DNA of 64,000 nucleotides from Fulvivirga sp. M361 (lineage in GTDB: Bacteria; Bacteroidota; Bacteroidia; Cytophagales; Cyclobacteriaceae), in NCBI RefSeq assembly GCF_007097395.1, contig NZ_VKDC01000025.1:1-64000 (forward strand), given 5' to 3'. The notes under the pieces are model-generated. The model had not been told where the DNA came from. It searched no databases and saw only the letters and a list, made by a program, of their open reading frames with translations. Shown here piece after piece: positions 36,707 through 58,479 of the stretch. Positions within the stretch are counted from its first letter, which is position 1. Each line of letters opens with the position of its first letter. A program made the translations under genes and the position numbers.

Positions 36707-39700
36707 ATGAGACTTTTACTAAGTTTTTTACTCATACTTTTTTTTACCTCGGGCTTACAGGCGCAGGCAGACAGAGCTATTAGCGGAAGGGTAGTGGATA
36801 AAGATGATGGTGAATCCATGCCTGGGGTCAGCGTCTATGTCAAGGGTACTTCCGTAGGGACTATTACAGATATAGAGGGAAGTTTTACACTTAATGTTCC
36901 GGACGGTACCGGGGTACTTGTGTTTTCCTTTGTGGGATACAGCACCCAGGAGATCGCCATAGAGAACCAAACTTTTTTTGACGTTAGCCTGGAATCTGAT
37001 ATTTACGAACTTCAGACAGTGGTCGTCACCGCGCTGGGTATTGAAAAAGAGGAGAGGGCTTTAGGCTATACTTCCCAGGAAGTAGGCGGGGACCAGATCA
37101 GTCTGGCCAAAGAAATTAATGTAGTTAATTCACTAACAGGAAAAGTAGCCGGTGTTTTTGTTAACCAGGCAGGTACCGGTCCGGGAGGTACATCTAAAGT
37201 GGTCATTAGAGGTTATGCCTCTGTAAATCCTGCAGGGAGTAGTAATTCACCACTTTACGTTGTGGATGGTGTACCCATGACTAACCCGCAAGGAGGGGGT
37301 TCGGAATTCGGAGGTGTTGATTTTGGGGATGGAATATCAAACCTTAACCCGGATGACATTGAATCCATTAACGTGCTAAAAGGACCTAGTGCATCTGCTT
37401 TGTATGGTTCCAGAGGGCAGAATGGTGTGATTATGATCACAACGAAAAAAGGTGCTTCAGGAAAAGGCTTAGGAATAGACGTTAGCAGCAGCATAATGCT
37501 GGAAACGCCCCTGGTGTTACCTGAGTTTCAAGACGAATATGGTAGAGGTTCCGGAGGTAATTTTCCGGTCGATAATAACGGTAATTTCTCGGATAACGCA
37601 CGTATCAGCTGGGGGGAACGTATGCTGGGACAAACGGAAGTAGGCGGCAGGCCCCTATTGAACTGGACAGGGCAACCAACTCCTTATGCTTCACAGGAGG
37701 ATAATATTTCTGATTTTTTCAGAACAGGCAAGACCTATATTAATAGTGTCACATTATCCGGAGGTAATGAAATGTCTCAAGGTATATTGTCCATTTCCAA
37801 CCTTCAAAATGAAGGTATAATGCCAAATAATGAGCTGGAAAGGACTACCGTAAACCTAAGGATCAGTCATAAGCTTTCTAAAAAGCTGTCTTTCGACGGT
37901 AAAGTCAATTACATCAGGCAAGAGGCTTTTAACCGACCAAATTTGGCCTTAAGTCCGGATAACCCTATGAACAGTTTGATCTCTATGCCAAGATCTATTC
38001 GATTGCGAGATCTCGAAAATTTCAGAAATCCTGATGGATCTCCACGGGTCTATACGAATGCGCCAGGTACTGACTTTTGGCAAAATCCTTATTGGGCCAC
38101 GAATCTGAATACGAACGAAGACACGAGAGATCGGGTATTGGGTTTTGTTTCTATAAAATACGATTTCACAGATTGGTTAAGTCTGCAGCTACGTTCGGGA
38201 ACAGATTTTTACCATGACAGAAGAGAATTCCGCAATGCTACTGGTACAATTTATAGAACAACACCGGATAAGTCTTTCTACTCTGTATATAACGCCAGGA
38301 TCTCAGAAACAAACTCTGATTTTCTATTAATGTTTAATCCTGCGCCCCGGGAGAAAATATCTATATCCGGTATCCTTGGAGGGAATATCCTGAAGGAAAG
38401 GTCGGAAACAGTGAATAATATAGCGCAAGGATTGGACATCCCTGATTTTTTTGTGCTACAAAATGGGTTATCCATATTGACCACCGAGGGTAGAGCTGAA
38501 AGAGAAGTACACTCACTTTATGCTTCGGCACAACTCGACTACAAAAAAGTACTCTTTTTGGAGGTCTCAGCACGAAACGACTGGTCTTCTTCATTGCCTC
38601 CTGATAACAGGTCTTATTTCTACCCATCTGTCTCTACTAGTTTTGTCTTTTCTGATCTGCTCGACCTGAACAACAATTTTTTAAGTTTCGGGAAACTGCG
38701 GGCTTCCTTTGCGCAGGTGGGTAACGATACACGGCCACACCAGCTAGATCTGAATTATTTCGTAAATACGCTTACCCACGATGGACAGTCGTTTGGTCAG
38801 GTTACCCGGACCCAACCTCCTGTTGACCTCAAACCTGAAGAAACGAATTCTTTTGAGATAGGCATAGACCTGGCGTTTTTTCAAGGAAGACTCAACCTGG
38901 ATGCGAACTATTACAACGCAGGGACCCGTAACCAGATCTACGCTACGCCGGTTTCCCGGCCTTCGGGTTTTGAAAGCAAATTTATCAATGGAGGACTGGT
39001 CAGAAATCAGGGAATAGAAGTCCTGTTGTCAGGAGAAGTGCTCAGGAAAAACGATTTTACCTGGACTTCCATGATCAATTTTTCACGTAACCGGTCTACG
39101 GTAGAAGAACTTTCGGATCAGGTAAATATTCTTTCCTTCGGAGCGTTCGACCAGTTTGGGGTACGTGTACAGGCAGAAGTCGGCGAGCCTTTTGGTAATA
39201 TATACGCTGACAGGAGTTACCTGAGAGATCCGGCTACAGGGCAACGGATCATTGGCGATAATGGCTTGCCGATACCTGACCCGGATGGTGAGATAAAAAT
39301 AGGCAACTTCCAACCGGACTGGCTGGCCGGGGTAACCAATACTTTCACGTTTAAGAATTTTACCTTAAGCTTCCTGGTGGATATCAAGAAAGGAGGAGAC
39401 ATCTATTCTTTTTCTAATGCCGTAGCTGCAGCAAACGGTAATGCAGAGTTTACCCTGGGGCAGCGGGCAGAATGGTATGCAGGGGCAGGTGGGTATGTTG
39501 CGGAAGGCATAAGAGAAGATGGAACCCCGAATACCCAGGAAATTGACCCTCAAGAATATTGGCAGTTTGTTGGCGGACAAGCTTCTGCCTTTGCGGAGGA
39601 ATTTATCTACGATGCTGGCTTCGTTAAACTAAGAGAATTGACTTTGGGGTACCAGCTTCCGAAAAAAATCCTGGAGAAGACAGTGTTTACGAAAGTCAGG

Positions 39701-39856
39701 TTGTCCTTTGTAGGGCGTAACCTGTTTTTCATCCATAAGAATACCCCTGGTTTTGACCCCGAAGCTACCTTCAATTCGGGCAAATCTCAAGGTATAGAAG
39801 CGTTTGCTTTTCCAAGTACACGAAGTTTTGGTTTTAATCTAAATTTTTCAATATGA
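36707..39856 (+). CDS. SusC/RagA-family TonB-dependent outer membrane transporter
   Basis: A 1049-residue outer membrane channel that imports oligosaccharides with its SusD partner, powered by TonB. Signal peptide MRLLLSFLLILFFTSGLQAQ; I start at the ATG at 36707 rather than the in-frame start 10 codons earlier. Then comes a carboxypeptidase-D-like domain (ISGRVVDKDDGESMPGVSVYVKG), a plug with VVVTALGIEKEERALGYTSQ and VVIRGYASVNPAGSSNSPLYVVDGVPM, and the barrel to the C-terminal Phe-Ser-Ile. It overlaps susD by 4 nt. Divergent from lacI, with two operators between. It is likely the most strongly induced gene of the locus. Confidence 0.95.
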   Translation: MRLLLSFLLILFFTSGLQAQADRAISGRVVDKDDGESMPGVSVYVKGTSVGTITDIEGSFTLNVPDGTGVLVFSFVGYSTQEIAIENQTFFDVSLESDIYELQTVVVTALGIEKEERALGYTSQEVGGDQISLAKEINVVNSLTGKVAGVFVNQAGTGPGGTSKVVIRGYASVNPAGSSNSPLYVVDGVPMTNPQGGGSEFGGVDFGDGISNLNPDDIESINVLKGPSASALYGSRGQNGVIMITTKKGASGKGLGIDVSSSIMLETPLVLPEFQDEYGRGSGGNFPVDNNGNFSDNARISWGERMLGQTEVGGRPLLNWTGQPTPYASQEDNISDFFRTGKTYINSVTLSGGNEMSQGILSISNLQNEGIMPNNELERTTVNLRISHKLSKKLSFDGKVNYIRQEAFNRPNLALSPDNPMNSLISMPRSIRLRDLENFRNPDGSPRVYTNAPGTDFWQNPYWATNLNTNEDTRDRVLGFVSIKYDFTDWLSLQLRSGTDFYHDRREFRNATGTIYRTTPDKSFYSVYNARISETNSDFLLMFNPAPREKISISGILGGNILKERSETVNNIAQGLDIPDFFVLQNGLSILTTEGRAEREVHSLYASAQLDYKKVLFLEVSARNDWSSSLPPDNRSYFYPSVSTSFVFSDLLDLNNNFLSFGKLRASFAQVGNDTRPHQLDLNYFVNTLTHDGQSFGQVTRTQPPVDLKPEETNSFEIGIDLAFFQGRLNLDANYYNAGTRNQIYATPVSRPSGFESKFINGGLVRNQGIEVLLSGEVLRKNDFTWTSMINFSRNRSTVEELSDQVNILSFGAFDQFGVRVQAEVGEPFGNIYADRSYLRDPATGQRIIGDNGLPIPDPDGEIKIGNFQPDWLAGVTNTFTFKNFTLSFLVDIKKGGDIYSFSNAVAAANGNAEFTLGQRAEWYAGAGGYVAEGIREDGTPNTQEIDPQEYWQFVGGQASAFAEEFIYDAGFVKLRELTLGYQLPKKILEKTVFTKVRLSFVGRNLFFIHKNTPGFDPEATFNSGKSQGIEAFAFPSTRSFGFNLNFSI

Positions 39857-41400
39857 ACCGGTTCCGGAGATCTTATCTGGCTATAAACAAGACCATGTTG
39901 CAAGGTGTACTGGTCATCCTGATGGTCACAGCCTGTACAAGTGATTTTGATGAAATGAACGTAAGTCCAGTGGCGGTGCAAGAGGACAGGATAAACGAAG
40001 ACCTATTGTTTACGCGAGCGTTGGTGTACGGTATGCTACGTTACACTGAATTACAGCGAGCTCAACACTTGTATACACATCACTACATACAATATTATTC
40101 CGTCGCTGTAGACTACTTCCAGACCGGGCGCTACATCACACGTAACGACTGGCTTACTGCCTACTGGACGGAAGCGTATGCTGATTTTGGTATGCAATGC
40201 CAGCAGGTCATTAATTTAACCCGGGATAACCCTGAAAAAGTTAATAAAACCTCTATTGCCCGCATATGGAAGGTATTCATTATGCACCGGATTACGGATT
40301 TCTGGGGCGATGTACCCTATTCCGAAGCTTTTTCAGGAGATATCACACCTGTCTATGATAAGCAGGCAGATATATACAGGGATATGTTGTCTGAGCTTGA
40401 AAATGCTGTGGCACAGATTGATCCTTCCAAAACGTTGAACTTTCAGACTAGCGATGTGATGTACAGAGGGGACCTTGACCTTTGGATCAGGTTTGCCAAC
40501 TCTTTGCGATTGAGGCTGGCCATGAGAATATCAGACGCTGACCCTGCCCTGGCACAAGAGCATGTTACAGCGATACTGGCCGAAAATAGATTGATAGAGA
40601 ATAACAGTCAATCTGCTATTATGAACTATGGCAGAGACTTCGGTGGTGCAGATGAAAACGTACAGCCTATGTCTCTTATAAAGAGCTTCAACGAGTACCG
40701 GATGAGCAATACGATCATTGATTACCTGCAAGACAACAATGATCCGCGCCTGCCGATCTACGCCAGCCCGGCAGAGGGTGGTAATTATGTAGGATTGACC
40801 AATGGATTAAACCCTGCTGAAGTAAACGAGATCATTCGCAATGATTATTCACAAGACAGTGAAATAATTTCTAATGTTTATTCGCCCAGTACGGCTTTAC
40901 AGTATTCGGAAGTTAACTTTTTAAAAGCCGAAGCCGCGTTGAAAGGATGGGGTCCGGGAAATCCTCAGGATCATTACGAAGAAGGGATCAGAGCTTCTGT
41001 TAACTATTGGTTAGATGTTTATACGAACTTACAAACCCGTGTTCCCAATCCGGATGCACTTCCTGTTATAGAGGTTACCTCTTTAGACATAGATAATTAC
41101 CTGCAAGAACCTGCCATTAGCTATGACAATGACAATGCATTAGAGCAGATCATAACACAAAAATGGCTGGCCAACATTAACAATGGTTTTGAGTCCTGGG
41201 CAGAGTATCGCCGGACCGGATTTCCATTATTGAACCCGATACCCAACACTGATGGGCTAAGCGAAACGGGAGGGACTTCAGTTCCCGTACGTGTAAGGTA
41301 CCCTATTGAAGAACTATCCCTTAATCAATTAAACTATGAAGCCGCAGTACAAAATAACCCTGACCTGGTGACAACACGGGTGTGGTGGGACGTGAACTAG
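39853..41400 (+). CDS. SusD/RagB-family surface glycan-binding lipoprotein
   Basis: A 515-residue lipoprotein (signal to LMVTACTSDFDEMN, Cys at about 30) with the SusD helical TPR scaffold: a four-helix start, WKVFIMHRITDFWGDVPYSEAF, YDKQADIYRDMLSELENAV, RGDLDLWIRFANSLRLRLAMRI, and the C-terminal QKWLANINNGFESWAEYRRTGFP. It forms the lid of the SusC channel and binds the glycan at the cell surface. It overlaps susC by 4 nt. Confidence 0.94.
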   Translation: MNRFRRSYLAINKTMLQGVLVILMVTACTSDFDEMNVSPVAVQEDRINEDLLFTRALVYGMLRYTELQRAQHLYTHHYIQYYSVAVDYFQTGRYITRNDWLTAYWTEAYADFGMQCQQVINLTRDNPEKVNKTSIARIWKVFIMHRITDFWGDVPYSEAFSGDITPVYDKQADIYRDMLSELENAVAQIDPSKTLNFQTSDVMYRGDLDLWIRFANSLRLRLAMRISDADPALAQEHVTAILAENRLIENNSQSAIMNYGRDFGGADENVQPMSLIKSFNEYRMSNTIIDYLQDNNDPRLPIYASPAEGGNYVGLTNGLNPAEVNEIIRNDYSQDSEIISNVYSPSTALQYSEVNFLKAEAALKGWGPGNPQDHYEEGIRASVNYWLDVYTNLQTRVPNPDALPVIEVTSLDIDNYLQEPAISYDNDNALEQIITQKWLANINNGFESWAEYRRTGFPLLNPIPNTDGLSETGGTSVPVRVRYPIEELSLNQLNYEAAVQNNPDLVTTRVWWDVN

Positions 41401-49762: not shown

Positions 49763-50467
49763 GTGACTAGTACAGGGAATATAGCGATCATTTACTTCAG
49801 TAGGAGCGCACAGGCTGAGAGTAAACATAAACAATGGTTTGACGCAGGTTCAGACCATCGTAACATGGCATTAGCTACTTCGCTGGTAGCCCATGGTTCA
49901 CATATTGTAAATAAGTCTGGTTTTCCTGTATTTCACTATCATGAAGGAAATCAAATTGGTCTTACTTTTGGTGAAAGAATAGCCAATGCATTCTCAGAGG
50001 TTTTTAATAAAGGATATGAAGCGGCCATAGCTGTTGGAAATGATAGCCCGGAATTAGACGGAACCAACTGGCAGAGCATTTCTGATCAGCTAAGAAAAGG
50101 TGAGAATGTATTAGGGCCTTCGGTCAATGGAGGGGCCTATCTGGTAGGACTGACAGCGGCTACCTATAACAGCCAGAAGCTGCAACAACTTCCCTGGCAA
50201 ACCCATCGGTTATTTGATGCCCTTCTTCACTTGAGTTCCAGTGATAATATGCGGACTCATGTTTTAAAGAAGCTACAAGATGTTAATTCCTTTTCCGACG
50301 TTCTTGTCCTCATCAAAAGCAATGCACTGAGTAAAGCTTTTAAAACAGTGTTACTAAACATTTTAGATCGTTTTAAAACGCTGCTTTTTTGCCATACACT
50401 TTTCATAGAAAACCTTTTTTCAGATTTTTCCCGCCCATTACGTGCACCTCCGGTACTTGCTTTGTAG
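49763..50467 (+). CDS. DUF2064 (TIGR04282-like) glycosyltransferase-fold protein
   Basis: A 234-residue cytoplasmic protein starting at a GTG. It has the GT-A/CofC-like fold of DUF2064: LTFGERIANAFSEVFNKGYEAAIAVGNDSPELDG, VLGPSVNGGAYLVGLT, and LPWQTHRLFDALL. The N-terminal nucleotide-binding signature of the family (a KxxxVKTRL-type loop) is not present (SAQAESKHKQW instead), so NTP binding is doubtful. The family has been noted near radical SAM genes, and one lies in the same run here. It is 78 bp upstream of the TonB receptor gene and may be the first gene of that operon. The last 50 residues are family-atypical. Confidence 0.72.
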   Translation: MTSTGNIAIIYFSRSAQAESKHKQWFDAGSDHRNMALATSLVAHGSHIVNKSGFPVFHYHEGNQIGLTFGERIANAFSEVFNKGYEAAIAVGNDSPELDGTNWQSISDQLRKGENVLGPSVNGGAYLVGLTAATYNSQKLQQLPWQTHRLFDALLHLSSSDNMRTHVLKKLQDVNSFSDVLVLIKSNALSKAFKTVLLNILDRFKTLLFCHTLFIENLFSDFSRPLRAPPVLAL

Positions 50468-50500
50468 ATAAGCCACCCTATTTCCCGCGGCATTTTATAA

Positions 50501-50519
50501 CCTTATACTTCCTATAAGG
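50501..50519 (+). repeat. Small hairpin between the DUF2064 gene and the TonB receptor
   Basis: CCTTATA (50501-50507) and TATAAGG (50513-50519) with a 5-nt loop, then CTTTATTTT. This is a weak terminator or leader hairpin; it could separate the two genes transcriptionally. Confidence 0.35.
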
Positions 50520-50545
50520 CTTTATTTTACCTCATTTTACGAACA

Positions 50546-53500
50546 ATGAAAAAATTATTGATGATAGCCGTATTGGCTACATTAGGCCAGTACATTTATG
50601 CACAGGCTGGCCTTGAGGTCTCTGTTATCAACAGGGACACCAATTTGCCACTCACCAATTATCCGATCAGGCTGATCAATGAGTCCATTGGATTTAGTAT
50701 CGAAAAGAATTCTGATAGTCAGGGTAAGGTCAAATTCCGCGGGCTCTCTACTTCCGGAAGGTATACGCTAAGTACTTCCGAAAACGACCAGTATTATGCT
50801 TTTGAAAAAAATGATCTGAGCCTTCGCTCCAATCAGTCGTCCAGTATTACCATCATTATAAACTTGAAATCAGCGATAGAACTGGAAGATGTAGTAATAC
50901 GGGGAGGTGGTTTTTCTGCGATTAACACCGTGAATGCTGAAGTGACTTCCGAGCTTACGGCTAAAGAAATAGAAACACTTCCCATAGAGGGACGTGATAT
51001 AACACGAGCCTTGTTTAGATTGCCCAATGTAACACAGGCTACGGGCTTTTTCTCTGAGGCGCCTACGGTAGCTATCAACGGGGCCAACTCTCTGTATACC
51101 AGTTATCTGATTGATGGACTTGACAATAACGAAAACTTCCTTGGAGGACAAAAATTTGCCATCCCAGTCGGCTTCACACAAAATATCACCGTGCTGGCCA
51201 ACAACTATTCTGCTGAGTATGGCCAGACTGCCAACGGTATTTTCAATATAACCACCAAGTCAGGTAGTAATGAGATCACCGGCGAGGCTTTTTACATTAC
51301 CCGCCCGGGCCCCGTGATAGATGCAAGTTCTTCTTTTGCACAGCGTGACCTCTCCGGTAACCAGGTGAAAGACGGGTTTCAACGTCATCAGGGAGGATTT
51401 GGTGTCGGAGGTCCTATCGTAAAAGACCGGACCTTTTTTTACCTGAACCTGGAATACACTAAAGATGTTAAAGACAATTTATTGAACTCGCCTGTTTTAG
51501 GAGTAAATGAGACCGTGCGTGGTGAAAATGATTTCTTGTATTTCTCCGGAAAAATTGATCACAGATGGAATGCACGATGGAAATCGAACCTACGCTTGAA
51601 TATGGGTGATGTAGGCATCGAACGACAGGGAGGCGGACTGGATGGTGGGTTGTCTTTTGAGTCAGCAGGTAATGTACAGGACCGAAATTCTATTTTGATA
51701 GCCTCTCAAAACGTCTATAACCTGGGAAATTTCCTTTCTGAAACGAATGTACAGTTTGCGCGCTTTCGTTGGGACTTTGCCAATCCCAATAACCCTTCCA
51801 GTCCTAACGTAACGGTATTAGATGCCAGTACGGATGAGACCATTGCCGTTTTGGGGCATCCGGGCTTTATTTTTAACTCACAGGAAGAGACCGTACAACT
51901 GCAACAAAAGTTTACGCTTTTCAAAAACAAGCATACCTTTAAGGCCGGGTTTGGCGTAATAAGCGCTGACCATAAATTATTAGCAGGAGGTAATCCCAAC
52001 GGCAGTTATACAGTGGCGTTGGATGCGGCTCAAATTGAACAAGTACGTTCTTTGAATGCAGGTGCTGGTCTGTCTGCTTTTGATATTCCGGCAGGTGCAG
52101 AGGTACGTAACTATGGTATTGAATTAAGGCCACAGTCTTTCGGCACACGCCAGAACCGGTGGAGTGCTTATATCGAAGATCTTTGGTCCGTCACCAACAA
52201 ACTAAATGTTACACTGGGTATCCGCTACGATTATGATAACCTTTCTAAAGGTGGTAGCAGCAGTGGTGATCTTAACAATATTGCACCCCGGCTCAATGCG
52301 AATTATAAGATCAACGATCGAAGCAACGTACGTTTTGGCTATGGGCTGTTTTATGAAAAGATCCTGTATGCTGTTTACAGTGATGCGTTACAACAAAACC
52401 GGACATCGCCGGATTACTTAAGACAATTACAGGAATTGATTGATCAGGGCATATTACCCTCAGATACGGACTTGAATGAGATCACCTTTGAAGGTAATTT
52501 AGGGGCTTCTTTTGATCGGAATGCTGTTCAGACGGCCGGCATTACTTATTTGAACGGGCCTGATTTTAGTGAATTACAGGGGCAGCGTGAAACCATTTTT
52601 GATGGGGAAGATGCCAGAATTCTCAACCCGGAAGGTTACGATAACCCGTTCAGCCATCAATTTACACTGGGGTACCAAAACCAGGTCGATGATGATATCT
52701 TGTTTTATGTCGATTTGATCCATTCCCGTTCGTTCAACTTATTTCGGTTAAGAAACCTTAACGCACCCGCTCCGCATACCGTAGTGTTTAATCCTGATTT
52801 TGCGCCTGGGCAGGTACGTAGCCCGGAAGATGCGGATCGGGTACGACCTGTTCCGATAGGTGCTGACTCTCAGGGTGGGTATGCCCTGGTGGCTGGCGAT
52901 ACACTTCGCGGAGGAGCCCGAAATATTGTGGTTTCTGAAACAGAAGGAACATCCACCTATTATGCGGCTAACTTTAACCTGGTAAAAGATAAAGGAGAAG
53001 ATAACTATGCCTATCGCCTCTACTATACACTTTCCAGGCTTCGTAATGATACGGAAGATATCAATTTCAGAGCTTCCGACTCCAATGATTTTAGCAGGGA
53101 TGAAGGGCCTTCCGTGAATGACCGGACACATGTGATCAGCGCCATTGGCTATTTCTACCCGGTCAGGAACTTTTCCATAAGCCTGGCTACGCTTATTCAA
53201 AGTGGCCAGCCGATCAACCGTATTCCGGTTTTTAGTGAATTCGGCACAACGGACCTTAATGGCGACGGTCAGTCATTTGGAGATGCATTTGTAGGAAATA
53301 GCGACCGTTCCCCCGGAGAGGCAAGAAACAACGACCGTTTGCCTTGGTCCACTACATTTGACTTAGGACTACAATACCAGTTTTCATTTAACGGAGGCGC
53401 TGCCCTGGAATTGAGGGCGGATGTATTTAACCTGTTCAATGCTGAAAACCTAAGCGGCTACAGTAACAATGCTACGCAAAGTAACCAGATACAGTCCGGA

Positions 53501-53581
53501 CCGGAAAGCTCCGGAGCATTGGTCATCCGAAATGCTGCTCCACCCCGACAATTCCAGTTTGGAGTACGGTATTTATTTTAA
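50546..53581 (+). CDS. TonB-dependent receptor, Oar/CarboxypepD_reg type
   Basis: A 1011-residue outer membrane receptor not of the SusC class. Signal MKKLLMIAVLATLGQYIYAQ; a carboxypeptidase-regulatory-like domain (about 22-110); plug (LPIEGRDITRALFRLPNVTQATG, INGANSLYTSYLIDGLDNNE, ITVLANNYSAEYGQTANGIFNITTKSG); and a 22-strand barrel ending FQFGVRYLF. It has no SusD partner. Instead it is followed directly by an ABC importer and a radical SAM gene, 21 bp downstream. It should bring the ligand of that importer across the outer membrane. Confidence 0.92.
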   Translation: MKKLLMIAVLATLGQYIYAQAGLEVSVINRDTNLPLTNYPIRLINESIGFSIEKNSDSQGKVKFRGLSTSGRYTLSTSENDQYYAFEKNDLSLRSNQSSSITIIINLKSAIELEDVVIRGGGFSAINTVNAEVTSELTAKEIETLPIEGRDITRALFRLPNVTQATGFFSEAPTVAINGANSLYTSYLIDGLDNNENFLGGQKFAIPVGFTQNITVLANNYSAEYGQTANGIFNITTKSGSNEITGEAFYITRPGPVIDASSSFAQRDLSGNQVKDGFQRHQGGFGVGGPIVKDRTFFYLNLEYTKDVKDNLLNSPVLGVNETVRGENDFLYFSGKIDHRWNARWKSNLRLNMGDVGIERQGGGLDGGLSFESAGNVQDRNSILIASQNVYNLGNFLSETNVQFARFRWDFANPNNPSSPNVTVLDASTDETIAVLGHPGFIFNSQEETVQLQQKFTLFKNKHTFKAGFGVISADHKLLAGGNPNGSYTVALDAAQIEQVRSLNAGAGLSAFDIPAGAEVRNYGIELRPQSFGTRQNRWSAYIEDLWSVTNKLNVTLGIRYDYDNLSKGGSSSGDLNNIAPRLNANYKINDRSNVRFGYGLFYEKILYAVYSDALQQNRTSPDYLRQLQELIDQGILPSDTDLNEITFEGNLGASFDRNAVQTAGITYLNGPDFSELQGQRETIFDGEDARILNPEGYDNPFSHQFTLGYQNQVDDDILFYVDLIHSRSFNLFRLRNLNAPAPHTVVFNPDFAPGQVRSPEDADRVRPVPIGADSQGGYALVAGDTLRGGARNIVVSETEGTSTYYAANFNLVKDKGEDNYAYRLYYTLSRLRNDTEDINFRASDSNDFSRDEGPSVNDRTHVISAIGYFYPVRNFSISLATLIQSGQPINRIPVFSEFGTTDLNGDGQSFGDAFVGNSDRSPGEARNNDRLPWSTTFDLGLQYQFSFNGGAALELRADVFNLFNAENLSGYSNNATQSNQIQSGPESSGALVIRNAAPPRQFQFGVRYLF

Positions 53582-53602
53582 GTTGAAAAAATCGATTCAT
53601 TC

Positions 53603-54811
53603 ATGCGCTTAAAGATTTTATACCTCGTCCTGATAATAAGTAGTATCGCTTGCGAAAACCAGAAAAAAGAAGAGGTAATAACAGATAAACCCTGGCAGCA
53701 GATCATTCGGGAATCCAGGGATAAAACCCTTACCTTGATGATGTGGCAAGGAGACCCTTTAATCAACCGGTTTATGAGTGACTACATAGTACCAGAGCTC
53801 AAAGAGCAATATGGTATTACACTCAACATAGTGAACGGTCAGGGCAATACCATTGTCAGTACACTCATGACAGAACTGGAAGCCGGAGTGTCCTCCAGTG
53901 AGGTGGACATGATATGGATCAATGGAGAGACCTTCTATCAATTACGTCAGATTAAAGCCCTTTATGGCCCCTTTGTGGAGCGATTACCTAATAATGAATA
54001 CATTGACTTGAGTAACCCTTTCATTGCCTATGACTTTCAGCAACCTGCGGACGGTTATGAATGCCCCTGGGGTAATGTGCAATTGGCGCTTATCTACAAT
54101 GGAGAGCAGGTGAAAAACCCACCACAGAACCTGATCGAATTAGAGAAATGGGTCAGGGAGCATCCTGGTAAATTCACTATCGGTAATGATTTTACAGGTA
54201 TGACGGTGCTCAAGTCCTGGCTCATTCATTTGGCAGGAGGAAAAGGGGCGTTAAAGGGCGATTTTAATGAGGAAAAATATAAAAAGTATAGCGCTGAACT
54301 ATGGGAATACCTTAACCGAATTAAACCCTATTGGTGGAACAAAGGACAAAGCTTTCCATCTTCGGTAGCGCAGATCCACCAGTTATTTGCTAACGGTGAA
54401 GTGTGGTTTACCATGAGCAATAACGATAGTGAAGTGGACAACAAGATCGTTCAGGGGATTTTTCCTGAAAGTAGCCGGGCTTATGTCCCTGAAACCGGAA
54501 CGATACAAAACTCACATTTTATGGGCATCGTCAACCATTCCTCCAACAAAGAGGCGGCCATGGTCGTATGCAATTTTCTGATTTCACCTGCGGTCCAGTG
54601 GGAAAAGATGCAGCCAGCCGTGTGGGGGGATGGCACAGTCCTGTCTGTGTCTGCACTGCCCGTGGAGTGGCAGCAGAAATTTCAGGCCATACCAGGAAGG
54701 AAAAATGCTCCTGATCGGGAGTTTATCAATGAAAGGGCCTTTATGGAACCCGCGCCTGAATATATGATCCGTTTGTTTGAAGATTTCAGAAAAGAGGTGA
54801 TTGAAAAATAA
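53603..54811 (+). CDS. YnjB-like ABC transporter substrate-binding lipoprotein
   Basis: A 402-residue lipoprotein (lipobox ISSIACEN, Cys at about 17) with a type 2 periplasmic-binding fold. It follows the E. coli YnjB pattern: LNIVNGQGNTIVSTLMTELEAG, VDMIWINGETFYQL, ECPWGNVQLALIYNG, FTGMTVLKSWLIHL, and AVWGDGTVLSVSALP. YnjB is a binding protein of an importer whose ligand is not established; the fold is shared with thiamine, iron and polyamine binders. Here it is membrane-anchored, as usual when it serves a Bacteroidota permease. It starts 21 bp after the TonB receptor. Confidence 0.88.
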   Translation: MRLKILYLVLIISSIACENQKKEEVITDKPWQQIIRESRDKTLTLMMWQGDPLINRFMSDYIVPELKEQYGITLNIVNGQGNTIVSTLMTELEAGVSSSEVDMIWINGETFYQLRQIKALYGPFVERLPNNEYIDLSNPFIAYDFQQPADGYECPWGNVQLALIYNGEQVKNPPQNLIELEKWVREHPGKFTIGNDFTGMTVLKSWLIHLAGGKGALKGDFNEEKYKKYSAELWEYLNRIKPYWWNKGQSFPSSVAQIHQLFANGEVWFTMSNNDSEVDNKIVQGIFPESSRAYVPETGTIQNSHFMGIVNHSSNKEAAMVVCNFLISPAVQWEKMQPAVWGDGTVLSVSALPVEWQQKFQAIPGRKNAPDREFINERAFMEPAPEYMIRLFEDFRKEVIEK

Positions 54812-54817
54812 CTGCTG

Positions 54818-55654
54818 TTGAGAAAGAAGACCATTATATTGATCTATGTCCTGGTTACATTGGGGCCCTTAGCGCTTGGGTTAAGTTATTCTATACGCTA
54901 CAGCTTTGGCCTGACGGGTTTGATGAATGAGGGATTTACTTTAACACATTGGATCAAACTCTGTAAGGAGAGTGATGCATTATACAGTTTAGGGTATAGC
55001 GCCTGGCTCACCATTATTTCCATGTTACTTACATTAGGTTTATCCTTGATGCTGTCCTGGTGGTTTGTCCGCCGGAAAGGAGCTAATGGGTTGTTCAAGT
55101 CCCTTTTCTTGCCGATGTTATTCCCGCCGCTTGTAGCGGCTTTTGCATGGTTTTACCTCCTTAGTCCCGGGGGCATCATTTCCCGTATGGCATATCACCT
55201 GCACATTACCAATGCTATTGACGACTTCCCCCGCTGGACTAATGACAATTACAGTATAGGAATAGTGATCACACATGTGTTTCTAATATTTCCCATTTTT
55301 ACGTTATTATTTACTGCACAGGCACAGAAAGAGCGAGTGTCTGAGTTAATGAATGCTGCATTAACCTTAGGAAGCAGTAAAATACAATTCTTGAAACGTA
55401 TATACATTCCTCTATTGCTTTTAAAAACCCGTCCTGTTATTTGGCTCTACGGGATATTTTTATTGGGTACCTACGAAGTGCCTTTATTACTGGGGCAGTC
55501 TTCCCCAAGGCCAGTAACCTTGTTCATTACCGATAAACTTACCCGGTTTGACCTCAAGGACATCCCCGTTGGTCATGCTATGGTGGTGGTTTATACGCTA
55601 TTGGTTTTGGTTGTTATTGCCCTTTTTGTTCGTAAAAAGCAGCATCTGATTTGA
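54818..55654 (+). CDS. ABC transporter permease (first half of YnjC-type pair)
   Basis: A 278-residue inner membrane permease with about six membrane segments, starting at a TTG at 54818 (6 bp after the SBP stop). The cytoplasmic coupling loop carries the EAA-type motif (LMNAALTLGSSKIQFLKRIYIPLLL). In E. coli the corresponding YnjC is a single double-length permease; here the two halves are separate genes, this one and the next. It overlaps the next gene by 4 nt. Confidence 0.87.
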   Translation: MRKKTIILIYVLVTLGPLALGLSYSIRYSFGLTGLMNEGFTLTHWIKLCKESDALYSLGYSAWLTIISMLLTLGLSLMLSWWFVRRKGANGLFKSLFLPMLFPPLVAAFAWFYLLSPGGIISRMAYHLHITNAIDDFPRWTNDNYSIGIVITHVFLIFPIFTLLFTAQAQKERVSELMNAALTLGSSKIQFLKRIYIPLLLLKTRPVIWLYGIFLLGTYEVPLLLGQSSPRPVTLFITDKLTRFDLKDIPVGHAMVVVYTLLVLVVIALFVRKKQHLI

Positions 55655-56421
55655 AAAACCAACTCCGTCATATCGTACTTATTTTTGTATTATCCCCTTT
55701 TTTGACAGTGGTTTATCTGTCCCTGGTATCAGGATGGTCATTTCCTGACCTGTGGCAGGCCAATTTTACCCTGCGTTTTTGGAAAAGCCTTTTGGAGTCA
55801 GGTAGCGGATTATTGGACAGTTTGCGGTTGTCTTTGTTTATTTCATTTTCCATTGCTCTATTGGCTACGGCATTTGGTTTTTTTGTGTCTAAACAACTCA
55901 TGTTCTGGCAGCGCTATCAGGCTTTGTTACAACTGGCCTTCTATCCCTACCTTATTGCACCGGTAATACTCGGGGCCATGTTACAATACTATTTTGTACG
56001 TTGGGGGCTGACAGGGACACTTCTTGGTGTATTCCTGGCCCAAACCTTATTCGTTTTACCCTATAGTGTATTACTTATGGCCACCTTCTGGACGGACCGT
56101 ATCCGGCAGATCGCTTTTCAGGCCAGTAGTTTAGGTGCGTCCAACCGGCAGGTGAATGCATCTGTACTGTTTCCCATGGCCAGGTCGTGGTTACTATTAT
56201 GTTTTGTCCAGTGTTTTCTGATCTCCTGGTTTGAATATGGTATTACGCGCTTGATAGGTGTGGGTAAAGTAGATACGTTGACCATTAAAGTCATGCATTT
56301 TGTACAGGAGGCGAATCCACACTATGCAGCATTGGCAGCCTGCCTGATGATATTACCACTTTTGGTAGTACTGGTCATCAATCAGCGGTTAATCACAAAC
56401 AGAAATCCAAACCCACTATGA
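55651..56421 (+). CDS. ABC transporter permease (second half of YnjC-type pair)
   Basis: A 256-residue permease with about six membrane segments starting at a TTG that overlaps the previous stop (TTGA). The EAA loop is FQASSLGASNRQVNASVLFPMARSWLL. It pairs with the preceding permease to form the membrane channel. It overlaps the ATPase gene by 4 nt (ATGA), so all components are co-translated. Confidence 0.87.
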   Translation: MKNQLRHIVLIFVLSPFLTVVYLSLVSGWSFPDLWQANFTLRFWKSLLESGSGLLDSLRLSLFISFSIALLATAFGFFVSKQLMFWQRYQALLQLAFYPYLIAPVILGAMLQYYFVRWGLTGTLLGVFLAQTLFVLPYSVLLMATFWTDRIRQIAFQASSLGASNRQVNASVLFPMARSWLLLCFVQCFLISWFEYGITRLIGVGKVDTLTIKVMHFVQEANPHYAALAACLMILPLLVVLVINQRLITNRNPNPL

Positions 56422-57137
56422 TCGTTCTGGATAACTTGCATAAAGTCTATGATGGGGAGACTGTTTTGAATGGCTTGTCATTGGAAGTGCCTGAACAGCT
56501 CACACTTAGTATCCTGGGAAAATCAGGTAGCGGCAAAAGTACATTGCTAAAAATAATGGCCGGCCTGGAATCTGCCGATTCAGGGAGCTTCTCAGTGCAT
56601 GGTGAAGATATGTTATCGCTGGTACCTCAAAAAAGAGGAGTAGTATACCTGAGCCAGGAGCCCCTGCTTTTTCCACACTTAAGTGTCTTTGAAAACCTGG
56701 CTTACGGGCTTAAAATACGAAAACAGGATAAAGCCGCCATACAAAAGGACGTGGAGGTGATGGCAGATAAGCTTGGTCTGTCCGAACACTTAATGAAAGG
56801 GCCTCATCAACTTTCCGGTGGTCAAAAACAACGGGTGAGCTTCGGCAGGGCGCTTATTATTAATCCCAACATATTGTTACTGGACGAACCTTTTGGAAGC
56901 CTGGATACGCAAACCCGGGCTGAAATGCAGTCACTATTCAATAGCATTCGTAAGGAATTTAGCATTACCGCATTGTTTGTGACCCATGACTTAAAAGAGG
57001 CCCTGCTCATGGGGGACAGAGTTGCTATGATGCAAGACGGGAATTTACAGGTGTTTTCTTCTGTTGAGGCTTTTATAAACGATCCCGGCTCGGGAGCCGC
57101 CGATGAAATTAAATTTTGGAAACAGTTTAATCTTTAA
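56418..57137 (+). CDS. ABC transporter ATPase (YnjD-like)
   Basis: A 239-residue nucleotide-binding subunit. Walker A GKSGSGKST (residues about 35-43), Q-loop LSQEP, signature LSGGQKQRVSFGRAL, Walker B NILLLDEPFG, D-loop SLDTQ, H-loop FVTHD. It drives import through the two permeases. Two bases separate it from the radical SAM gene. Confidence 0.93.
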   Translation: MIVLDNLHKVYDGETVLNGLSLEVPEQLTLSILGKSGSGKSTLLKIMAGLESADSGSFSVHGEDMLSLVPQKRGVVYLSQEPLLFPHLSVFENLAYGLKIRKQDKAAIQKDVEVMADKLGLSEHLMKGPHQLSGGQKQRVSFGRALIINPNILLLDEPFGSLDTQTRAEMQSLFNSIRKEFSITALFVTHDLKEALLMGDRVAMMQDGNLQVFSSVEAFINDPGSGAADEIKFWKQFNL

Positions 57138-57139
57138 CA

Positions 57140-58084
57140 ATGAAAGATTTTAATCATATAGAATCTGTATACTGGGTGTTTACACAACTCTGTAACGATA
57201 AGTGCGACCACTGTTATAACTTATCAGGCCCTCAGGGTTCGAGAATATCTGAAGAAGACTGCCTCAACATTATCGAAAACTTACCGGATAGTGTAGAGCG
57301 ATTGATTTTATCTGGCGGTGAGCCGCTGGCAGAAAGGAAAAAACTGTACCTGATACTGGATAAGCTCAAAGAAAAGTACCAGGGTAAGACCCAGATCATG
57401 CTCCAGACCAATGGAGATCTGTTAACAGATGAGATCCTGGATACGCTGATCGAAAAAGGAGTGACACGTTTTGATATTGCCAGTATAGACCGTTATCACA
57501 AGGCGGCTGGCGGAAGACTCATGCAATTAGCTGAACTTTTTGAGTCAAGAGGAGTAAATGGTGATGATAAAGACCCGTTGGTACGTAAAGAGAATTACCT
57601 CCATAACTACTCCCTAAGCTGGGGGTATTGGGGCGCCAATGAGGATATGTGGCTGGGAGGTAACTGGGCAAGGGGCCGTGCAATGCAAAAGAACATATGG
57701 AAGAAGGACCCCGATCATAACTTTTGCGCGATCTTATCCGGGGCGGTAGGCTTCCTAAATGGAGGCGATAACATACCACAGGAAATATCCATACAGCTGT
57801 GGAAAATAAACCCCTGCTGTCCGGGTACAAAAGAAGCGCTGGGTGATGCCCGAAAGGAGAAGGTGGCCGATGTTCTTCTGCGCCTTTCCGGTAATCCGGT
57901 CTTTGAAATGCTGGACAAAGGTGATCCGTATAAAATGGGGGAGTCGGTCGGTATTTCAGAAAGTCATGCACGAAAGCGATGCGGAGAGCTTAAAAACGTG
58001 TGTCTCTGGTGTGATGAGTTCTTTGAAAAGCACTACGACATGTCTAAACTTGAAAAGAAAGCAGCAGAAGTACCCAAGGTATAA
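57140..58084 (+). CDS. Radical SAM protein of unknown reaction in the TonB/ABC importer operon
   Basis: A 314-residue radical SAM enzyme. The [4Fe-4S] cluster motif CNDKCDHC (Cys18, Cys22, Cys25) is canonical CxxxCxxC; LILSGGEPL is the GGE SAM-binding motif; MLQTNGDLL follows. The C-terminal half has further cysteines (NFCAIL, INPCCPGT, KRCGELKNVCLWCDEFF), suggesting a SPASM/Twitch-like auxiliary cluster. The linkage (2 bp after an ATPase and a complete uptake system) implies that its substrate is the imported ligand or that its product is needed for its use. I cannot assign a TIGRFAM class. It is not ArsS-like, as the N-terminus and C-terminus differ. Confidence 0.85.
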   Translation: MKDFNHIESVYWVFTQLCNDKCDHCYNLSGPQGSRISEEDCLNIIENLPDSVERLILSGGEPLAERKKLYLILDKLKEKYQGKTQIMLQTNGDLLTDEILDTLIEKGVTRFDIASIDRYHKAAGGRLMQLAELFESRGVNGDDKDPLVRKENYLHNYSLSWGYWGANEDMWLGGNWARGRAMQKNIWKKDPDHNFCAILSGAVGFLNGGDNIPQEISIQLWKINPCCPGTKEALGDARKEKVADVLLRLSGNPVFEMLDKGDPYKMGESVGISESHARKRCGELKNVCLWCDEFFEKHYDMSKLEKKAAEVPKV

Positions 58085-58101
58085 CATTATGGTAATATAG
58101 A

Positions 58102-58479
58102 ATGGAAGCAGAGAAGGAATTGATTTTCGTATATAATGCGGACTCAGGCGCCTGGAATGGATATATGGACATAATGCATAAGGTGTTCTCGCCAAAAACC
58201 TATGCATGTAATTTATGTGCGATCACCTATGGCACATTTTCCATTAAAAAGGAATGGGCAGATTTTATTGAAGGTCTGCCTGTAGCATTACGCTTTCTGC
58301 ACCGCGATGAATGGGAAAGGGAATTCAAACGCAAAGATGATCTTCCCGCAGTTTTTTTGAGAAGAGGCGATCAGCTGTCTGTTTGGCTGGAGGCGGAAAC
58401 GATGAATGAGATGGACCTAGAGGGGTTAAAAGGTTATATTGCTGCGCGTGTAAATGGAGCAGGGACGGAAATTGCCTGA
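58102..58479 (+). CDS. Small CxxC protein following the radical SAM gene
   Basis: A 125-residue soluble protein of a recurring but uncharacterised family: ELIFVYNADSGAWNGYMDIMHKVFSPKTYACNLCAITYGTFSIKKEW. The CNLC pair resembles a redox or metal site. No signal peptide or membrane segment; no Walker motif is present, so the label GTPase sometimes given to the family is not supported. It is 17 bp after the radical SAM gene and is the last gene of the run, so it is probably a partner of that enzyme or of the transporter. Confidence 0.7.
   Translation: MEAEKELIFVYNADSGAWNGYMDIMHKVFSPKTYACNLCAITYGTFSIKKEWADFIEGLPVALRFLHRDEWEREFKRKDDLPAVFLRRGDQLSVWLEAETMNEMDLEGLKGYIAARVNGAGTEIA

Follow-up and report, generated by a model that had tools for sequence, protein, structure and literature searches.

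A conserved TonB receptor, YnjBCD-type importer and radical SAM gene set in Fulvivirga sp. M361, with a possible role in the uptake of ribosyl-type metabolites

Gene content and layout of the locus

The window analysed here is a stretch of 64,000 nucleotides from Fulvivirga sp. M361 (Bacteroidota), comprising positions 1 to 64,000 of contig NZ_VKDC01000025.1 (assembly GCF_007097395.1). Between positions 49763 and 58479 it carries eight genes on the same (+) strand, which encode a complete set of candidate parts for import across both membranes, followed by a radical S-adenosylmethionine (SAM) enzyme:

49763-50467, + strand: DUF2064 protein (PF09837, 54.4 bits, cut-off 25.8)
50546-53581, + strand: TonB-dependent outer-membrane receptor (Plug PF07715, 39.7 bits, cut-off 23.9; barrel PF00593, 35 bits, cut-off 27)
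53603-54811, + strand: YnjB-type substrate-binding lipoprotein (PRK11622/YnjB, NF008633, 375.9 bits, cut-off 203)
54818-55654, + strand: ATP-binding cassette (ABC) permease 1, BPD-type (PF00528 over cut-off; TTG start as called)
55651-56421, + strand: ABC permease 2, BPD-type (NCBIfam permease matches sub-threshold only, no Pfam match at E 0.01; TTG start as called)
56418-57137, + strand: YnjD-type ABC ATPase (from family searches and its presence in relatives)
57140-58084, + strand: radical SAM enzyme (PF04055, 59.5 bits, cut-off 29.5)
58102-58479, + strand: accessory CxxC protein of 125 aa (Cys36-x2-Cys39; no Pfam or NCBIfam match at E 0.01)

The intergenic distances are, in order, 78, 21, 6, -4, -4, 2 and 17 bp, in agreement with the initial annotation, which had described eight same-strand genes with no gap above 21 bp from the TonB receptor on and with overlapping transporter genes. 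The gene beyond the CxxC protein starts 283 bp further on. From this spacing the eight genes are likely to form one transcript; promoter and terminator scans of the window returned shuffle-level counts (22 against 18.5, standard deviation 4.2, and 11 against 9.9, standard deviation 3.6, respectively), so it is the spacing that argues for a single transcript. The gene identities first proposed, namely a substrate-binding lipoprotein, two permeases, an ATPase and a radical SAM enzyme with auxiliary cysteines, are upheld by profile searches and by eight invariant cysteines in the enzyme. The receptor additionally has an N-terminal CarboxypepD_reg match that lies under its cut-off.

The enzyme belongs to the radical SAM superfamily, with PF04055 over its cut-off and a CxxxCxxC motif. 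In a 40-row alignment of sequences 50-86% identical to that of the window, the motif cysteines (C18, C22 and C25) are invariant, as are five auxiliary cysteines (C196, C226, C227, C288 and C291). Among the best 25 of 52 NCBIfam rows, no radical SAM family (NirJ, AhbD, MoaA and others) is matched over its cut-off, the best score being 43.2 bits against a cut-off of 500, and TIGR04167 (ArsS) is absent, so that the enzyme is not ArsS. Its predicted structure (pLDDT 87) matches EpeE best, with TM 0.54-0.57, then BtrN with 0.45-0.50 and SpeY with 0.32-0.42; these are twitch-type enzymes, and the model together with the C-terminal cysteine set, which might hold one auxiliary [4Fe-4S] cluster, predicts a twitch-type fold for the window enzyme.

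The substrate-binding protein is a member of the YnjB subfamily NF008633. Its lipoprotein cysteine, Cys17, is invariant in 36 rows, and its model (pLDDT 93) has its best fold matches in the class of STM0429, FbpA and PotD, of which STM0429 is the Salmonella phosphonate binder PhnS. Searches of Protein Data Bank sequences with the YnjB sequence, a YnjB profile and profiles of two accessory families described below (c6 and c7) gave no match.

Conservation of the gene set and coupling of enzyme to importer

Relatives of the radical SAM enzyme were sought in a scan of one-per-species genomes, which found 94, and the best 80 (58-86% identical to the window enzyme) were retained as loci with L numbers. 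Their record titles name Bacteroidetes, Ignavibacteria, Kapaibacterium, Chlorobiota and others, with one Gammaproteobacteria. The latter (L071) looks like a true gammaproteobacterium, carrying genes that by eye resemble dnaK and dnaJ; the labels of two metagenome-assembled genomes, L004 (Thalassovita) and L067 (Armatimonadetes), are possibly binning errors. Gene order was assessed in the 64 loci with at least 7 kb of sequence upstream of the radical SAM gene (testable loci), and genome-level co-occurrence in a sample of 296 genomes of the host phylum (G numbers, the host genome being G000).

The full order DUF2064-TonB-ynjB-permease-permease-ynjD is found on the same strand upstream of the radical SAM gene in 47 of the 64 testable loci. 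Nine more carry the four ABC genes, with DUF2064 the sole missing member in seven (L009, L013, L015, L018, L038, L056 and L069) and with the ABC genes alone upstream in two (L070 and L071; in L071 a TonB-receptor-like gene lies downstream, TIGR01783, 117.6 bits, cut-off 223.5). Three loci have DUF2064, TonB and the radical SAM gene without ABC genes (L003, L010 and L062), L007 has ynjD alone upstream, and four (L019, L051, L075 and L077) have none of the six genes upstream. Gene by gene, the upstream same-strand totals are 50 for DUF2064, 57 for TonB, 56 for ynjB, 56 for each permease and 57 for ynjD, and when truncated contigs are counted too, at least one ABC gene lies upstream in 66 of the 80 loci. 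In the phylum sample YnjB occurs in 5/6 genomes with the radical SAM enzyme and in 11/290 others (Fisher p 1.4e-6).

An order kept across relatives in this way rules out chance assembly, and the coupling of the import route to the radical SAM enzyme is well supported; we hold it to be real with high confidence. The test that had been set for the idea, that homologues of the enzyme might usually lie away from the transporter, came out in its favour, with ynjD and ynjB upstream in the proportions just given. That the enzyme feeds or depends on the importer stands as regards coupling, but importer-less loci, L003 among them, exclude strict dependence on a linked importer: the enzyme can exist without it. 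DUF2064, which had been thought a possible addition to the system, is a core member of the module. The CxxC protein is accessory and not a fixed member. It is encoded at 6/80 radical SAM loci, directly after the enzyme in five (gaps of -4 to 63 bp) and 5.6 kb away in L076, and in 54/296 genomes of the phylum, mostly without this YnjB or the radical SAM enzyme (the G072 copy has an internal stop). Two further accessory families of about 215 aa each, c6 and c7, occur in 22 and 21 radical SAM loci. A search for c7 beyond the module in 23 genomes, mostly ones in which c7 does not adjoin it, found it in the L007 genome only, where it adjoins the module; the host genome lacks c7.

Several further arrangements were seen around relatives of these genes. 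In a Haliscomenobacter-like group of six loci (L075 and L077-L081) a GH32-type gene stands 1-36 bp before the radical SAM gene as called, and none of the transporter genes of the module was seen nearby; GH32 domains were confirmed in L077. A lactonase-family beta-propeller gene lies between permease 2 and the ATPase at L170:9112-10296 (PF10282) and, as a 50% identical copy, at L046:3684-4853. At L182:6941-11931 a far-diverged YnjBCD (YnjB 30% identical) adjoins a far-diverged radical SAM gene (31%), suggesting an old association. A distant radical SAM relative (50% identity) lies in L105:234-9601 in a run with genes for a PhnS-like substrate-binding protein, a D-Ala-D-Ala dipeptidase, a DUF5686 protein, a DUF547 homologue, TIGR04283, a second, TrsS-like radical SAM enzyme and DUF2064; the 797-aa protein of this run was considered as a TonB receptor and ruled out, its Pfam assignment being DUF5686. 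Spread of the radical SAM gene by plasmid is unsupported, as it had no plasmid match.

Partner replacement and the candidate ligand

The clearest pointer to a ligand comes from genomes that have YnjB and lack the radical SAM enzyme. YnjB is present in 16 genomes of the phylum sample, the enzyme in six and both in five, and neighbourhoods were viewed for all 11 with YnjB only. A nucleoside-phosphorylase-family (MTAP-like) gene follows the importer in five (L177, L178, L180, L181 and L183) and a nucleoside-hydrolase-like gene in four (L173-L176); the remaining two are L182, with the divergent radical SAM gene (31% identity), and L179, with none in view on a 7.8 kb contig. Six of the 11 (L173, L174, L175, L177, L180 and L183) also carry a methylthioribose (MTR)-kinase-like gene. 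L183 retains DUF2064-TonB-ynjB-permease-permease-ynjD and has a pair of MTAP-like and kinase-like genes at the position of the radical SAM gene. Pfam assignments are over cut-off for the L177 phosphorylase (PNP_UDP_1), the L175 hydrolase (IU_nuc_hydro) and the L180 kinase (APH), and the remaining partner genes were identified by BLAST. Conversely, no MTAP-like protein was found at E 1e-10 in 48 of 49 genomes with the radical SAM enzyme (the host, G000, and those of 48 of the 80 loci), the lone match being 26% identical; among the 80 loci an MTAP-like match is seen in L071 only (26-30% identity). The outer-membrane components also cross between the two types: in L076, SusC and SusD genes beside the radical SAM and DUF2064 genes encode proteins 65-68% and 61-69% identical, respectively, to those of four hydrolase-type loci, with SusD-like and TonB domains over their Pfam cut-offs. 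The window itself has a further SusC/SusD-like pair, at 36782-41391, whose members are 33% and 29% identical to module-type SusC and SusD.

Most simply, these patterns would reflect a single class of ligand whose first enzyme can be exchanged. We propose, tentatively and at somewhat less than an even chance, that the operon is a conserved uptake-and-processing set for a ribosyl-type small metabolite (5-deoxy-ribosyl), possibly an arsenosugar, in which the radical SAM enzyme is one interchangeable cytoplasmic enzyme. The ligand itself could plausibly be nucleoside-like or a 5-deoxy-5-substituted riboside, a class that includes methylthioadenosine (MTA), methylthioribose and arsenosugars, but here too we would stop short of even odds. 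Such a ligand would cross the outer membrane through the TonB receptor, or in certain genomes through SusCD, and the YnjB lipoprotein would pass it to the two-permease YnjCD-type importer. A cytoplasmic enzyme would then act on it, in this genome presumably the twitch-type radical SAM protein, and elsewhere the place of that protein would be filled by a nucleoside-hydrolase- or nucleoside-phosphorylase-family enzyme, often with an MTR-kinase-like protein.

Several results weigh against this proposal. The partner replacement is based on 11 genomes, and the partners score far under the NCBIfam equivalog cut-offs, so that their substrates may differ: 85-107 bits for the MTAP-like proteins (five scanned; cut-off about 275), 74-120 bits for the MTR-kinase-like proteins (five scanned; about 275) and 90 bits to RihC for a nucleoside-hydrolase-like protein (one scanned; about 382). 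The closest fold to the radical SAM enzyme is that of a peptide epimerase, EpeE (TM about 0.55), and the YnjB fold search points to a broad class of phosphonate, iron, polyamine and dinucleotide binders, with no call on the ligand. Seven of the 64 testable loci carry no ABC gene upstream on the same strand, including the closest relative, L003 (86%). When genomes with the enzyme and no full importer seen beside it (some contigs end there) were searched, YnjB was absent from 8/12 and located elsewhere in four; the same search, of 14 genomes in all, was positive in the host and in the L105 genome. Finally, as regards arsenosugars, ArsS is over its cut-off in 14/50 genomes with the radical SAM enzyme (picked from the 80 loci) as compared with 120/296 in the phylum sample, and in 0/6 of the sample genomes with the enzyme, and is thus not enriched with it.

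A rather unlikely alternative, yet one with evidence of its own, narrows the ligand to an organoarsenical, for example an arsenosugar, which the radical SAM enzyme would transform in scavenging or breakdown, not synthesis. Organoarsenic genes lie near scattered loci. In L058 the module sits inside an arsenosugar cluster with AhpD (TIGR04169), ArsS, rhodanese (NF045521), TIGR04282, a purine-nucleoside phosphorylase, AsSugarArsM and TIGR04283, each over its cut-off. L052 has NF045521, TIGR04282 and TIGR04283 over cut-off and, before the radical SAM gene, an ArsM-like gene of 181 bits (cut-off 263), with no ArsS match in its genome at E 1e-60. TIGR04169 and ArsS are over cut-off downstream in L064 and L067; ArsR, canonical ArsM and TIGR04282 in L063, with a further ArsM-like gene below; and an ArsR-ArsI pair in L021, which as called diverges from DUF2064 and lies about 56 bp upstream of it. 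In L007 the radical SAM gene is immediately preceded by an ArsM-like gene (190 bits, cut-off 263); L073 has a rhodanese gene (NF045521, over cut-off) divergent beside DUF2064, and L105 has TIGR04283 over cut-off with the DUF547 homologue in its run. These loci, L105 apart, occupy about six positions in the tree of the enzyme, L052 and L058 sharing a clade and L064 and L067 being sisters (no support values). By BLAST, arsenic-type genes are found at 8/80 loci and in 0/40 control stretches (contig starts from 40 of the 50 genomes; 603 kb against 1375 kb tested), a comparison that is indicative only, as the seeds were drawn from the tested loci and the controls are fewer and shorter.

The CxxC protein points the same way, with ArsS in 47/54 of the genomes that encode it against 120/296 overall. 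Within one family it is present in 38/42 genomes with ArsS and 4/23 without (65 members listed, 9 sample genomes unlisted; kinship uncorrected). YnjB occurs in 3/7 CxxC genomes without ArsS as against 13/289 others (p 0.004). The low ArsS count would be compatible with a scavenger, for which making the compound is unnecessary. Against an organoarsenical stand that count, the 72 of 80 loci in which no arsenic-type gene was seen within the stretch examined, the ArsM-like genes of L007, L052 and L063 that fall below cut-off, the fact that in L073 the sole gene of this kind is a rhodanese gene, and the CxxC and ArsS genes, which are non-adjacent in the 11 relative loci viewed. The host genome, moreover, has no ArsS match over cut-off (TIGR04167, 300 bits; best E 2.4e-8). 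Obligate arsenosugar synthesis is unsupported by the ArsS counts. TIGR04283, over cut-off in 23/50 genomes with the enzyme, is not used as evidence, there being no control sample. The most specific form of the idea, an import route dedicated to organoarsenic ribosides, which the unnamed radical SAM family would open or rearrange interchangeably with nucleosidase or phosphorylase and sugar-kinase enzymes, we consider unlikely.

The ligand originally suggested, a metal complex, cofactor or peptide, now appears quite improbable. TonB receptors often import such compounds, the nearest predicted fold is that of EpeE, and a short precursor peptide may have been missed, since open reading frames under 60 aa lay outside our survey. 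In the 40 commonest neighbour clusters (reading frames of at least 60 aa, named by eye), however, we noticed nothing resembling a precursor gene or a gene for metal handling, and for the same lack of a precursor-like gene maturation of a ribosomally synthesized and post-translationally modified peptide was set aside. What recurs instead are nucleosidase or phosphorylase and MTR-kinase-like partners in the variants without the radical SAM enzyme, and organoarsenic genes near some loci. A little more improbable still is that the module salvages a modified nucleoside or base, for instance queuosine, and that the enzyme is a lyase analogous to the queuine lyase QueL: the nucleoside-hydrolase-like partner would suit it and a queuine lyase is named in the literature, but the kinase-like partner would be unexpected and no queuosine gene was noticed in the same 40 clusters. 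That these are ordinary neighbours without a common function is scarcely credible, for although the enzyme sometimes occurs without the other genes (L019, L051, L075 and L077), the order is kept in most testable loci and the genes co-occur at the genome level.

If the preferred reading of a ribosyl-type ligand holds, partner replacement would provide a concrete ligand class for YnjBCD. With an organoarsenic ligand, the module would represent the consuming side of compounds that are known mostly through their producers, and would give one YnjBCD branch a ligand, the arsenosugar cycle in the environment an uptake step and radical SAM chemistry a new reaction; were the ligand an ordinary 5-deoxynucleoside, the module would remain a salvage route from TonB receptor to cytoplasm whose first enzyme is unusual. 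The module is unnamed in the literature searched (subscription papers lay outside the search), where YnjB or YnjBCD appears in no title or abstract.

Comparison with known systems

The window substrate-binding protein is in the same NCBIfam subfamily as YnjB of the Escherichia coli ydjXYZ-ynjABCDE genes. It differs in being about 35% identical to that protein, in having two permease genes in place of the single 511-aa ynjC, so that the importer does not share the E. coli permease architecture, and in its surroundings, as TonB, DUF2064 and radical SAM genes are not annotated in the 10 kb viewed in E. coli. More generally, E. coli-type YnjB proteins (five gammaproteobacterial genomes and K-12) are 29-35% identical and have different neighbours. 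Two gammaproteobacterial copies in G435 have the order DUF547-TonB-YnjB-permeases-YnjD with no radical SAM gene in view, one with c6 and c7 and the other with c6; TonB domains were confirmed in L198. In E. coli K-12 (L184) ynjBCD is flanked by the AhpD-like ynjA and the sulfurtransferase ynjE, a setting reminiscent of the AhpD and rhodanese genes in arsenosugar clusters.

Salvage of MTA and other 5-deoxynucleosides (MtnP and MtnK; dihydroxyacetone phosphate (DHAP) shunt) resembles the variants without the radical SAM enzyme in their MTAP-like and MTR-kinase-like genes. It differs in that these genes lie under the equivalog cut-offs and that no MTAP-like protein was found in the host genome; nor were MtnP or MtnK homologues found in the window, and by gene content the operon is not an MTA/MTR salvage system. 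The DHAP shunt operon is described as including a putative transporter gene (PMC12632272).

Arsenosugar clusters (ArsS TIGR04167, TIGR04282, TIGR04283 and AsSugarArsM) are linked to the module through L058, where it is embedded in one, and through DUF2064, which on sequence grounds is a divergent branch of the arsenosugar-type glycosyltransferase TIGR04282. The window protein scores 73.6 bits to TIGR04282 (cut-off 134) and so falls outside that family. An N-terminal KTRL loop present in 3/3 canonical TIGR04282 rows is missing in 13/13 module-type rows, which suggests that the module protein may not be a normal glycosyltransferase, and the module type has a C-terminal extension not seen in canonical TIGR04282, ending in [RK]xPP in 9/13 rows (RxPP in seven). 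The clusters further differ in their ArsS, which the window enzyme is not and which the host lacks over cut-off. Radical SAM enzymes take part in organoarsenic synthesis (PMC12159101).

Lastly, although the window enzyme has query-normalised TM scores of 0.32-0.57 and 16-19% identity to the twitch-type enzymes EpeE, BtrN and SpeY, it shares with them a radical SAM core and a cysteine-rich C-terminal segment.

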